Shown here in pieces: positions 12,947 through 27,922 of a DNA stretch of 43,640 bases. The notes under the pieces were generated by a model, which was given only the letters and a program-made list of their open reading frames with translations, was not told the DNA's origin and searched no databases. The DNA comes from Deltaproteobacteria bacterium. Lineage in GTDB: Bacteria; Desulfobacterota; Desulfarculia; Adiutricales; Adiutricaceae. A program made the position numbers and the translations under genes. The stretch is from positions 1 through 43,640 of the forward strand of contig JAISFP010000150.1 of assembly GCA_031263525.1 (NCBI GenBank). The letters are read 5' to 3'. How positions within the stretch are numbered: position 1 is the stretch's first letter; every line of letters begins with the position of its first letter.

Positions 12947-13297
12947 ACGGATACTGAACAGATACCGATATTCGTCCTCAAGGAGGACTTGAGGCAGCTC
13001 TGGACCAGGAGGTCGAAGGTGGAGGCGGAGGCGGCCCTCAAGAACTGGTTGACCACTGCCAGGGAGTCGGGAGACCCGGCAATCATAAAGCTGGCCAACA
13101 CCATTGAGAAGCACAGCGTTAACATATTGAACTTCTATGACTTCAAGATTTCCACCGGGAAGCTTGAGGGCATCAACGGCAGGATCAGGCGAAAGATCGC
13201 GCAGGCCTACGGTTACCGCGACCTGAACCTTCTGAAGAGGTTGATACTGGCCATCAGGCTATTTCAGCCGAAGAGGAACATGCCTATCCTCAGCTGA
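12947..13297 (+). pseudogene. ISL3-family transposase, C-terminal remnant
   Basis: The open frame runs from the stop at 12944-12946 to 13297, about 116 codons. The C-terminal part has the ISL3 DDE transposase signature TGKLEGINGRIRRKIAQAYG followed by YRDLNLLKRLIL, where the family has the final catalytic Glu and an R..YG.R motif. Everything upstream, including the zinc-finger/HTH region and the first two catalytic Asp residues, is missing, so it cannot be active. A TTG at 12989 is the only start codon near the beginning. It sits inside the AT-rich accessory island. Confidence 0.75.
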
Positions 13298-13800: not shown

Positions 13801-15156
13801 TTAAGAACTGTAACTTCCGACAACGCAGAGGAAATTATCTTCAGAAACACTGGCCCTTTCTCCGCTCAGTGTGCTGTCATAAGAATAGATGCGGGAAGGA
13901 ATCTTGCTGTGGCGGACCTTCAACTTGAAGCCAGAATTGAACGTTTCGCTGTTGTAATGCTTTTCGATGGCTCCGTAGCATATGTCGTCTGAAATTGTGA
14001 GAAATCCTCCCCGGACAAGATCGATATAGGAATCCGTGTACGAGGAGTTCTTGTAATAGTAGTTAGTCTCGGCTTTGGCTACTGCTTCGTATGCCGCCTT
14101 GGCCCTGCCGTCTGCGTCAGCAGGAGACGAGGGAGTGCCTGTGCCAGAAGCGGCAGCGGAATCTGAAGGCGTTTGTGAAGCTGAAGTTCCGTCAGATGAA
14201 AACGAGCCGCCAGACGCCGGTTCAGCAGATTTAGGGGCAGTCGGTGTATCAGCTGCTGGCGAAGAAGGCGGGGCGGCAGGCGTGGCCGGGATAACCTTGG
14301 GTTTTGCTCTTTTGGAACCGTTCAAGCAGTCAATATTGATACCTCCAGATGAAATTTTAGCCCCATCTCTTGGAGCATAGACTAAGCCGTAAGGATATTC
14401 ATTCGAATTAACATGATGGAAATAAAATCTGAAAAAATTTTCGTCATTAGCGACATATTGTCTGAGTTCTATCTCAGAGTAACATATCGAATCGTAAAGA
14501 TGGGCCCCCCATTCGACAAGCTCTTCGTAACTTGTCGTGTAACGCTTGTGCTGAGCAAATATTTCATTCTCTGCATCAGCTATAGTCTGGTAGACATCTT
14601 TAAATTTTGGAATTTGAAGATTTACATTTGCAACAGTCTCTTCACTCGGTCCAGCTTCATAACTCGGCTTTCCGTTAATTGAAACGCAACCAATGCCAGA
14701 AACTTCAGCCAAGTATGGAGTGTCTTTAGTGTTGCTGTAATATGAGTAGGCTATTGGAAACCTGTCTCTGTCAGGAGAACCGACAGAGAAATGGTAACTG
14801 GTATTGGAATTTTGCAAGACAATCGGACCGTAACACAGGTCAGGATCAAGAACTAGGCCGGCTTTCGCCACAAGCGTCTGGTGACTTGTGGCGTACCGGC
14901 CATTTTGAGAAAAGAATGCGTCTTCGGCAGCGGCAATGGCTTCTGCCGAATTGAATATAGCAGTTTCCAGCATGAACACTGGCGGCTCGAAGATCGGAGA
15001 GGACACGCTGGCAGTCGGCTCCGGCGAGTATTCGTCTTCGGAAGGCATGATGTCGAATCCGAAAAAGGGCAGTATGCTCAAGAAAATCAGGGCAAGAAAC
15101 TCCAGGATGGCATAGCCTGTCCTGTTTCCGTTCAGGCGCGAAGGGTTTGCACTCAT
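13801..15156 (-). CDS. prepilin-like protein with three tandem pilin-like head domains
   Basis: 451 aa from the ATG at 15156, chosen because GAGG sits five bases upstream and it gives a class III signal: 14-residue leader ending in Gly14, then Tyr15, then Glu19 (RTG|YAILEF) followed by a hydrophobic helix (15-35). G|(F/Y)xxxE is the prepilin-peptidase rule. The rest is three copies of a pilin-like head at about 66-163, 188-282 and 352-451. Each opens with an Ala/Glu helix and a Y-T-S-L motif (AAAEDAFFSQNGRYATS; ADAENEIFAQHKRYTTS; AKAETNYYYKNSSYTDS), then a CY motif (C108, C225, C393), and ends with a second Cys (C157, C277, C444), as in the disulfide-closed D-region of type IV pilins. A Ser/Pro/Ala linker (about 285-348) precedes the third head. 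Pilins normally have one head; three in one chain is unusual. Probably one unit with the DUF4234-like gene 166 bp upstream. Confidence 0.75.
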   Translation of the reverse strand: MSANPSRLNGNRTGYAILEFLALIFLSILPFFGFDIMPSEDEYSPEPTASVSSPIFEPPVFMLETAIFNSAEAIAAAEDAFFSQNGRYATSHQTLVAKAGLVLDPDLCYGPIVLQNSNTSYHFSVGSPDRDRFPIAYSYYSNTKDTPYLAEVSGIGCVSINGKPSYEAGPSEETVANVNLQIPKFKDVYQTIADAENEIFAQHKRYTTSYEELVEWGAHLYDSICYSEIELRQYVANDENFFRFYFHHVNSNEYPYGLVYAPRDGAKISSGGINIDCLNGSKRAKPKVIPATPAAPPSSPAADTPTAPKSAEPASGGSFSSDGTSASQTPSDSAAASGTGTPSSPADADGRAKAAYEAVAKAETNYYYKNSSYTDSYIDLVRGGFLTISDDICYGAIEKHYNSETFNSGFKLKVRHSKIPSRIYSYDSTLSGERASVSEDNFLCVVGSYSS

Positions 15157-15322: not shown

Positions 15323-16285
15323 CTAAGAGACATCGTTCCCGCTGGAGTTCTGGCGGTGGACGGATGAGGGAGCCGACTGTTCCGTCTGCTGCTGAGGTCC
15401 CTGAACCGGGGGCTGGCCGAACGGCGCCGGGGAACCGGGCTGGGGGGGCTGGCCGAACGCCGCCGGGGAACCGGGCTGGGCGGGCTGGCCGAACGGCGAC
15501 TGGGAGCCGGCCTGGGCGGTCTGGCCGAACGGCGACTGGGAGCCGGCCTGGGGTGGCTGGCCGAACGGTGCCGGGGAACCGGGGTGGGCGGGCAGGTCGA
15601 ACGGCGACTGGGAGCCGGCCTGGGCGGGCAGGTCGAACGGCGACTGGGAGCCGGCCTGGGGTGGCTGTCCGAACCCCGCCGGTGAGCCGGCCTGGGCGGG
15701 CTGGCCGAACGGCGACTGGGAGCCGGCCTGGGGTGGCTGTCCGAACCCCGCCGATGAGCCGGCCTGGGGTGGCTGTCCGAACCCCGCCGGTGAGCCGGGT
15801 TGGGGGGACTGCATGGCGGAAAAATGAGTGCCGTGGCCCTGCCCCGTGGTTAGAATGTTGGCTTTGCGTACGAGATAGTAGGCATAGAAACCTTGGAAAA
15901 GAACCGCAAGGAGCGGATTGACCTTGACCTGCAGTCCGATGACGGAAAGATACTCCCTTATCTTTCGTCCAAGAATCACGAATGCCGTTGTCTGCCAGGC
16001 GATTGAAAGAACCAGGAGAATATTGCAGACGTAAGGGATGATGTCGCCTTCTGGGGAGGAGAGGGCTTCGGACAGGATTGTAGACCAAAAGTAAAAGGCG
16101 ACGGCCAAGACCATGATCCAGCATGGAAACCGCCTGTGAAGTCTCCCGGTCCTGTTCAGGCTTTCTCCCAGCGACAGGTTCCAGTGGAAGTAGACGAAAG
16201 AGAAAGTGAAAAAAGAGAGCAGGATGAACTTCAGCAAGCCTTTCCTGGTATCAGGGTTTTCGGGGAAGGCTGATGCCGGTGCCAT
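15323..16285 (-). CDS. DUF4234-like membrane protein with Gln/Pro/Gly repeat tail
   Basis: 320 aa from the ATG at 16285, preferred over an upstream TTG because GGAGG lies six bases before it. The N-terminal half carries four predicted membrane helices (about residues 15-35, 52-72, 80-102, 115-138) and resembles DUF4234 (GLLKFILLSFFTF at the start of helix 1). The C-terminal half is about 12 units of a 12-residue repeat (FGQPPQAGSQSP and variants such as FDLPAQAG). Such Pro/Gln/Gly tails are seen in SHOCT/DUF4234-type envelope proteins, but no function is established. A strong promoter candidate lies at 16426-16454. The prepilin-like gene follows in the same direction. Confidence 0.75.
   Translation of the reverse strand: MAPASAFPENPDTRKGLLKFILLSFFTFSFVYFHWNLSLGESLNRTGRLHRRFPCWIMVLAVAFYFWSTILSEALSSPEGDIIPYVCNILLVLSIAWQTTAFVILGRKIREYLSVIGLQVKVNPLLAVLFQGFYAYYLVRKANILTTGQGHGTHFSAMQSPQPGSPAGFGQPPQAGSSAGFGQPPQAGSQSPFGQPAQAGSPAGFGQPPQAGSQSPFDLPAQAGSQSPFDLPAHPGSPAPFGQPPQAGSQSPFGQTAQAGSQSPFGQPAQPGSPAAFGQPPQPGSPAPFGQPPVQGPQQQTEQSAPSSVHRQNSSGNDVS
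15389..15815 (-). repeat. in-frame 36-bp array encoding FGQPPQAG repeats
   Basis: About twelve 36-bp units within the DUF4234-like gene, each encoding FG(Q/L)P(P/A)(Q/H)(A/P)GS plus three variable residues. The period is a multiple of three, so copy-number change would alter tail length without a frameshift. The opposite strand is also open across it, which produces spurious ORFs. Confidence 0.93.
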
Positions 16286-16425: not shown

Positions 16426-16454
16426 AATGTATCCGAACTAGTTGACTTTGTCAA
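16426..16454 (-). promoter_or_regulatory. sigma70-type promoter with duplicated box, upstream of the DUF4234-like gene
   Basis: On the minus strand: perfect TTGACA (16449-16454), 17-bp spacer, TACATT (16426-16431). The sequence GACTTTGTCAAAT occurs twice in direct orientation (16416-16428 and 16444-16456), 28 bp apart. One copy covers the -35 box and the other the -10 box, as expected of an operator pair. It would give a leader of about 135 nt. Confidence 0.5.
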
Positions 16455-26956: not shown

Positions 26957-27204
26957 TGGCGGCATCCTCGCTGGTGAGACGTGGGCAGGGGGACGGGAGG
27001 GCCCAGATAGTCAAATATTACGAAACGACAGTGCAAGAAGGTTAACAGGGATTGTCAAGATACGGTGGGCCGTTGCCTTGGAGTGCCTTTTCCCGGCCCG
27101 AGGGGAAGGCGGTTCCGGAAGGCGGCGAGAGCCCCCGTGGCAGAAAAAGCCTGAACTCGGCCTGGAGGCTGGACCTGGCCGCCAGGCGGTGGCGGTCCGA
27201 GACA
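26957..27204 (-). promoter_or_regulatory. upstream region of the double-TonB gene, weak promoter at 27030-27058
   Basis: On the minus strand a perfect TTGACA at 27053-27058 is followed, 17 bp on, by TGCACT (27030-27035), a poor -10 box. Its position, about 75 bp before the gene, is suitable. The rest of the interval holds nothing I can support. Confidence 0.3.
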
Positions 27205-27605
27205 GAAGGGGCATGATCACCTCCTGGAGTCAGGACCGGGCAGCCAGGCGGGGCCTGGCCGAGAGGGGCATGATCTCCGGCTGGAGTCAGGACCGGGCTA
27301 GCAGGAGGCAAAGGGCAGAAGCAGGAGGGGCATGATCACGTCCTGGAGTCAGGACCGGGCAAACAGGGGCATCGGGCCGAGACAGGAGGGGCATGATCAC
27401 GTCCTGGAGTCAGGACCGGGCAAGCAGGGGCATCGGGCCGAGGCAGGAGGGGCATGATCACGTCCTGGAGTCAGGACCGGGCAAGCAGGGGCACCGGGCC
27501 GAGGCAGGATGGGCATGATCACGTCCTGGAGTCAGGACCGGGCAAGCAGGGGCATCGGGCCGAGGCAGGAGGGGCATGATCACGTCCTGGAGGCGGGACC
27601 GGGCA
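27205..27605. repeat. 61-bp tandem array
   Basis: Seven units each containing GGGGCATGATCACGTCCTGG and GTCAGGACCGGGCAAGCAGG. CATGATC starts at 27212, 27269, 27331, 27392, 27453, 27514 and 27575; the last five steps are exact or near-exact 61-bp copies. The first two units are more diverged, so the array appears to have grown towards its right end. Confidence 0.94.
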
Positions 27606-27922
27606 ATCGACCGGCAACAAGACATCTGGGTGTGAGGGCCTGAACCAGGCAAGAAGACTGGCCAAGACTGCCGGGCGGAGTGGTGTGCTCGGGTCCGGAT
27701 GAGCACGGCCCCAGTCTGGAGACAGGACAGGGCTGCCAGTAGCGGCAGTCAGGGTCCGGCTGGCACAAGCTCACGGCCAGGAGACATGACCAGCTCGCTG
27801 GTACCGGCTGACAGTGTCCAGAAAGGCATGATCGCCGCCTGAAAACGGGACTTGACAGCCGGGTTGGCTGAGCCAGGACGGGTCCGGAGACGCCCACCCC
27901 CCTCTCCAGTCCGGACGATGGC
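27606..27922. other. gene-less spacer after the 61-bp array
   Basis: About 320 bp of GC-rich DNA between the array and the stop of TM1266 copy 2. Only shadow frames; no terminator seen. Confidence 0.5.

Follow-up and report, generated by a model that had tools for sequence, protein, structure and literature searches.

Tandem pilin-like heads behind an apparently degenerate prepilin signal in a member of the Adiutricaceae

Pilins normally combine one head with one polymerising stalk. The protein described here carries three such heads in tandem, and several known systems resemble it in part. The modular pilins PilB and PilC of S. sanguinis (PMC8179133, PMC9934059) are likewise large, pilin-related and built with C-terminal modules on linkers, but their class III signal is recognised and they join a single pilin module to an unrelated domain, whereas here the signal is not recognised and the extra domains are themselves pilin heads. 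The published survey of modular pilins looked for extra domains that are not specific to pilus biology, so tandem pilin heads would fall outside it. In the split pilins of Geobacter (PMC10191384) the head is separated from the prepilin stalk, as it is in our protein, but that head is single and part of a filament, whereas ours are several and any assembly of them is hypothetical. PilA4 of Thermus thermophilus (6xxd), the solved structure whose fold is nearest to that of heads 1 and 3 (Z 10.6-10.7, at no more than 13% identity), is a one-headed filament subunit, unlike the three-headed protein. The canonical type IV pilins of the bacterial family itself (G000:C60, L037 and L018) have a homologous head, found by the same profile and expected to share its fold, but they possess one head each, a GFTLIE signal, a continuous alpha-1 stalk and no Cys pair.

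The literature searched held no description of tandem pilin heads, in agreement with the earlier note on this DNA, which had called the architecture undescribed. Nor did we find any work combining pilin, TM2 domain and zinc ribbon, and papers worded in terms of tandem, fused, double or duplicated pilins were, judging by their titles and abstracts, not concerned with such an architecture.

The three-headed gene and its heads

The gene (Table 1) lies in a window of 43,640 nucleotides, this being the whole stretch of DNA analysed, from a source genome (G000) whose assembly is 74% complete. A ribosome-site-like GAGGT is found immediately 5' of its ATG. The earlier note had placed it in an AT-rich island with no other pilus gene nearby and both points hold: the island, at about 11-15 kb, has 42-47% G+C against 65-70% in most of the surrounding DNA, the third-position G+C of the gene is 0.47 compared with 0.75-0.94 in four native genes, and beyond this gene the contig has no match to a prepilin, a prepilin peptidase or a PilB-type protein. 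Its neighbours are an AAA-ATPase-like/PDDEXK gene and a terminal piece of an ISL3 transposase, the latter being a sign of earlier mobility of the island. Elsewhere in the window (27149-27611) there is a tandem repeat of several 61-bp copies with 89-94% identity; as 61 is not a multiple of three, this repeat is probably non-coding.

Table 1. Positions of the features in the window
Feature	Position	Strand	Basis
Pilin-related protein with three heads (451 aa; start codon ATG at 15156, stop at 13801; stop included in coordinates)	13801..15156	(-)	single ORF
Residues 1-34: short hydrophilic leader, G14/Y15/E19 core and hydrophobic helix (putative degenerate class III signal / membrane anchor)	15055..15156	(-)	sequence
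Residues 35-60: Pro-rich linker interrupting the pilin alpha-1 stalk	14977..15054	(-)	sequence
Head 1, residues 61-163, type I Cys pair	14668..14976	(-)	homology, model
Head 2, residues 181-285, type I Cys pair; the most divergent of the three	14302..14616	(-)	homology, tree
Pro/Ser/Ala-rich linker between heads 2 and 3	14122..14301	(-)	sequence
Head 3, residues 346-451, type I Cys pair; tree partner is head 4 of four-headed relative	13804..14121	(-)	model, tree
ISL3 transposase, C-terminal piece, between head gene and AAA-ATPase gene	12989-13297		
Upstream gene: small multi-span membrane domain and Pro/Gln/Gly-rich repeats	15323..16285	(-)	homology
Promoter-like site 5' of upstream gene	16426..16454	(-)	consensus match only

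In all three modules a helix rich in Ala and Glu is accompanied by the motifs Y-[AT]-x-S and CY[GS] and by a closing Cys. That these are homologous modules of about 100 residues, as the earlier note proposed, is borne out by shuffle controls, with z values of 9.7-12.7 for the modules compared with one another and 8.9-21.9 for the modules compared with C60, a canonical prepilin of the source genome; in neither comparison did any of 1000 shuffles reach the observed similarity. The same controls rule out a chance repeat, and a frameshift artefact is ruled out by the single intact frame and by the existence of relatives with 2-6 heads.

The heads are also predicted to fold as pilins do. An AlphaFold model of head 3, built with 54 aligned heads (pLDDT 91.5, pTM 0.84), consists of a single long helix, a loop containing a short helix, and an antiparallel sheet, and its best match when compared with solved structures by VIA-align is PilA4 (Z 10.7, 2.3 A over 90 residues), the best four matches all being type IV pilins. 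Heads 1 and 2 were modelled together (pLDDT 77.9). Head 1 matches the same PilA4 chain (Z 10.6), and the best eleven matches of this model are pilins or a pseudopilin. Head 2 shows the same order of elements as head 1 and has no separate pilin match among the matches listed; homology and predicted secondary structure point to its being a pilin head. With Foldseek by itself a single weak pilin match was obtained (E 0.015), VIA-align making the likeness clear, and a search of PDB sequences with the head profile gave no match; it is thus structure that connects the heads with solved pilins. Of the three, head 2 has the lowest G+C (38%) and the longest branch, indicating that the heads have evolved at different rates.

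The closing Cys and CY motif, which the earlier note had seen in each head, belong to one of two kinds of Cys pair. Type I, made up of CY[GS] and a Cys close to the C-terminus, has both members in 18 heads and one in 5, whilst type II (C[YF]xF plus DSC) has both in 16 heads and one in a single head. The members of a pair co-occur far beyond expectation (p 5e-15 for type I and 9e-18 for type II, values inflated by the relatedness of the sequences). The two types are mutually exclusive, and most non-canonical heads have one of them, whereas neither is seen in any of 57 canonical pilins. All three heads of the window protein are type I.

Relatives and the upstream gene

Across 37 genomes of the family, 126 loci reduce to 90 distinct head-bearing ORFs with 107 heads. 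The head profile finds matches in 29 of these genomes and in all 11 genera; in the class outside the family it gives one weak match. The named relatives recovered with the head are Deltaproteobacteria MAGs. We infer that the head-bearing relatives are termite-gut genomes of the family Adiutricaceae, and the host of the three-headed protein is probably a gut bacterium from termites. The family includes Candidatus Adiutrix (PMC9137090).

The window protein is not unique: 83 of the 90 ORFs have a single head but seven have more (6, 4, 3, 3, 3, 3 and 2), giving six further multi-headed ORFs with up to six heads. Each of the 57 ORFs that open with a canonical prepilin start has just one head, whereas 7 of the 31 others are multi-headed (Fisher p=4e-4, leaving aside two ORFs cut at contig ends and with related sequences that are not phylogenetically independent). 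In these other ORFs, heads follow Sec-like signals, as judged by eye (L036, L039, L041, L119), TM2 or zinc-ribbon/Pro-Gln-rich modules (L013, L017, L020, L106, L114, L117, L118), a DUF4234-like protein (L014) or degenerate class III helices. The genomes are nearly all draft assemblies and assembly error is in principle a possible source of multi-headed or fused ORFs; it is disfavoured because the seven multi-headed ORFs span three genera.

In a tree of 102 heads, head 3 of the window protein pairs with head 4 of a four-headed protein from G005 (100/98) and head 2 groups with the other heads of that protein (99/87), so that the genus is likely to have had a multi-headed ancestor. In L022, from another genus, the six heads form one group (98/99) and represent a separate multiplication, and L042, from a third genus and with low tree support, may be another. 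The L022 gene (1021-2961 in G023:C117) has its heads at a period of 98 residues and a G+C content of 31%, far below that of the other multi-headed genes; its array is probably a recent amplification. The densest cluster of head genes seen is at L039 (G005:C168), where four genes with 3, 1, 3 and 4 heads follow one another on the same strand between 7453 and 13718.

A second gene lies 166 bp upstream of the three-headed gene on the same strand, and no terminator-like site was found between the two on the minus strand. The C-terminal half of its product (window 15323-15860) is an imperfect Pro/Gln/Gly/Ser repeat (of the type GQPPQAGS), similar in composition to the PQ-rich stretches of the zinc-ribbon/TM2 head proteins of relatives. 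PF14018 (DUF4234) does not match this protein, and its homologue at L039:2457-3494 scores 21.4 bits against the same model, below the 25.3 cut-off. The upstream protein is homologous to the N-terminal half of L014 (E 1e-19), a protein of a third species (G004) in which the homologue and a head share a single open frame. In L014 (3-1808 in G004:C211) a prepilin-like helix, GYALTELL, occurs at codon 405, after the multi-span domain and a Pro-rich stretch, and there are no ATG, GTG or TTG codons between codons 343 and 442, an interval that spans the helix. In G003, a second species, a homologue of the upstream gene directly precedes a single-head gene with a G-Y-x-x-x-E helix, whilst in G005 one shares a contig with four head genes. 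Taken together, the linkage and the fusion suggest that the head and upstream proteins work together. A similar layout is seen in other genera, where a TM2 module is fused to the head.

The N-terminus and the competing explanations

The three-headed protein begins with the leader MSANPSRLNGNRTG, followed by YAILEFLALIFLSILPFFGF. The earlier note had read a class III signal here, and G14, Y15, E19 and a hydrophobic helix are indeed present, but the claim was overstated: neither PF07963 nor TIGR02532 matches the N-terminus at E<=1, whereas both recognise the true pilin of the source genome, and searching Pfam and NCBIfam with the protein gave nothing meaningful. All that is kept of the signal is Gly-1 and Glu+5 before the hydrophobic helix (G14 and E19). 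Of 229 control transmembrane segments, a set that includes true prepilins, 4 have this G-x4-E core preceding a hydrophobic stretch. The core is shared by L012, L014 and the four-headed protein of L039, all otherwise diverged in this region, and is absent from those paralogues with Sec-like signals that were tested. Scored with a prepilin N-terminal matrix trained on the family, the protein does not rise above background, but that matrix is unable to tell degenerate signals from background and the G-x4-E core was therefore used instead. Prolines at residues 30, 38, 45, 47, 54, 58 and 59, together with Asp35, break the stalk: the alpha-1 helix does not run on continuously into the head, with six prolines in residues 35-60 and the helix of head 1 starting at about residue 60. 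On these residues, the N-terminal signal reads as a worn prepilin signal.

The pilus assembly machine, predicted by the earlier note to be elsewhere in the genome, is represented there by PilB-type ATPases, a prepilin peptidase and a minor-pilin/PilY1-like cluster, and the source genome also encodes at least two canonical pilins with the same head (C60 and C475, one of them cut by a contig end). Thus neither a non-pilin fold nor a genome lacking a prepilin peptidase, the two outcomes that the note had named as counting against its proposal, was found. Its suggested search for pilB, pilC and pilD succeeded for the ATPase and the peptidase but not for the PilC platform protein, which was not found in this 74%-complete genome. 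As PilC is present in relatives (22 of 25 genomes searched; 4 of 5 others from the same genus), we do not take its absence as evidence against pili.

These data bear on the main rival to the reading that we favour, namely that the three-headed protein is a real minor pilin, cut by the peptidase after G14 and guided by Glu+5 into the pilus, where the three heads would form a bulky adhesin at, or close to, the tip. Keeping a Glu in a membrane helix carries a cost unless the filament makes use of it, and the survival of Gly-1 and Glu+5, like the presence of pilus machinery, counts against a role outside the pilus; moreover, bulky pilins are tolerated at the tip in the case of S. sanguinis PilB and PilC (PMC8179133, PMC9934059). 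Set against this are the failure of both signal models and the background matrix score, the interruption of the stalk by Pro30, Asp35 and the Pro-rich linker, the Sec-like signals on multi-headed relatives and the position of the L014 helix, some 400 codons inside an open frame. We consider a minor pilin unlikely, and the bulky tip subunit envisaged in the earlier note is left unsupported by the degenerate signal, the Pro-broken stalk and the confinement of multiple heads to ORFs without a canonical start.

It is improbable that the gene is decaying and functionless within a mobile AT-rich island. The transposase remnant, the low third-position G+C and the long branches of heads 1 and 2 would all suit decay, but the 451-codon frame is intact and preceded by GAGGT, all three Cys pairs are retained, head 3 gives a rough dN/dS of ~0.24 with its closest relative (dS being near saturation), and a multi-headed relative has been kept in another species. 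Least probable is a split-pilin design in which detached heads join stalk-only pilins in the filament: stick and head are two proteins in the Geobacter major pilins (PMC10191384) and several heads of the family have no pilin stalk of their own, but no stalk-only pilin was seen beside the head genes (the source genome being 74% complete), the canonical pilins of that genome, complete or contig-cut, already carry the same head (C60, C475), and multiple heads per chain do not match one stalk each.

Pilin heads at the cell envelope

The reading that we favour, with a modest degree of confidence, is that the three-headed protein is pilin-derived but probably no longer a filament subunit, serving instead for the membrane-anchored display of disulfide-locked heads outside a filament. 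It draws on the homology and fold of the heads, their number, their linkage and fusion to the upstream protein, the co-occurrence of their Cys and the lack of a canonical signal. The worn prepilin helix would anchor the protein in the cytoplasmic membrane with its leader inside, and the Pro-rich linker would present the three type IV pilin heads, each locked by a putative disulfide, outside that membrane. The protein is probably co-produced with the upstream multi-span protein, a homologue of which forms a fusion with a head in a relative. In origin, a pilin head would have been uncoupled from its canonical prepilin stalk, have acquired a stabilising Cys pair and have been multiplied; most likely, the protein would act at the cell envelope as a multivalent module for binding or interaction.

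For the family as a whole, we regard as evenly poised the broader proposal that heads have repeatedly left the filament for Sec-like signals or membrane scaffolds, gaining two new kinds of disulfide and tandem arrays of 2-6 heads to become multivalent envelope proteins. The detached heads are perhaps adhesins or soluble competitors of the pilus.

If this is correct, a filament subunit has been recruited for another job, with one and the same head occurring as a canonical pilin, in a scaffold fusion, in an apparently secreted form and in a tandem array. The idea of the modular pilin would be broadened to include grafted modules that are pilin heads themselves, and it would become testable which features of a pilin, be it signal, stalk or disulfide, serve assembly and which serve folding alone.
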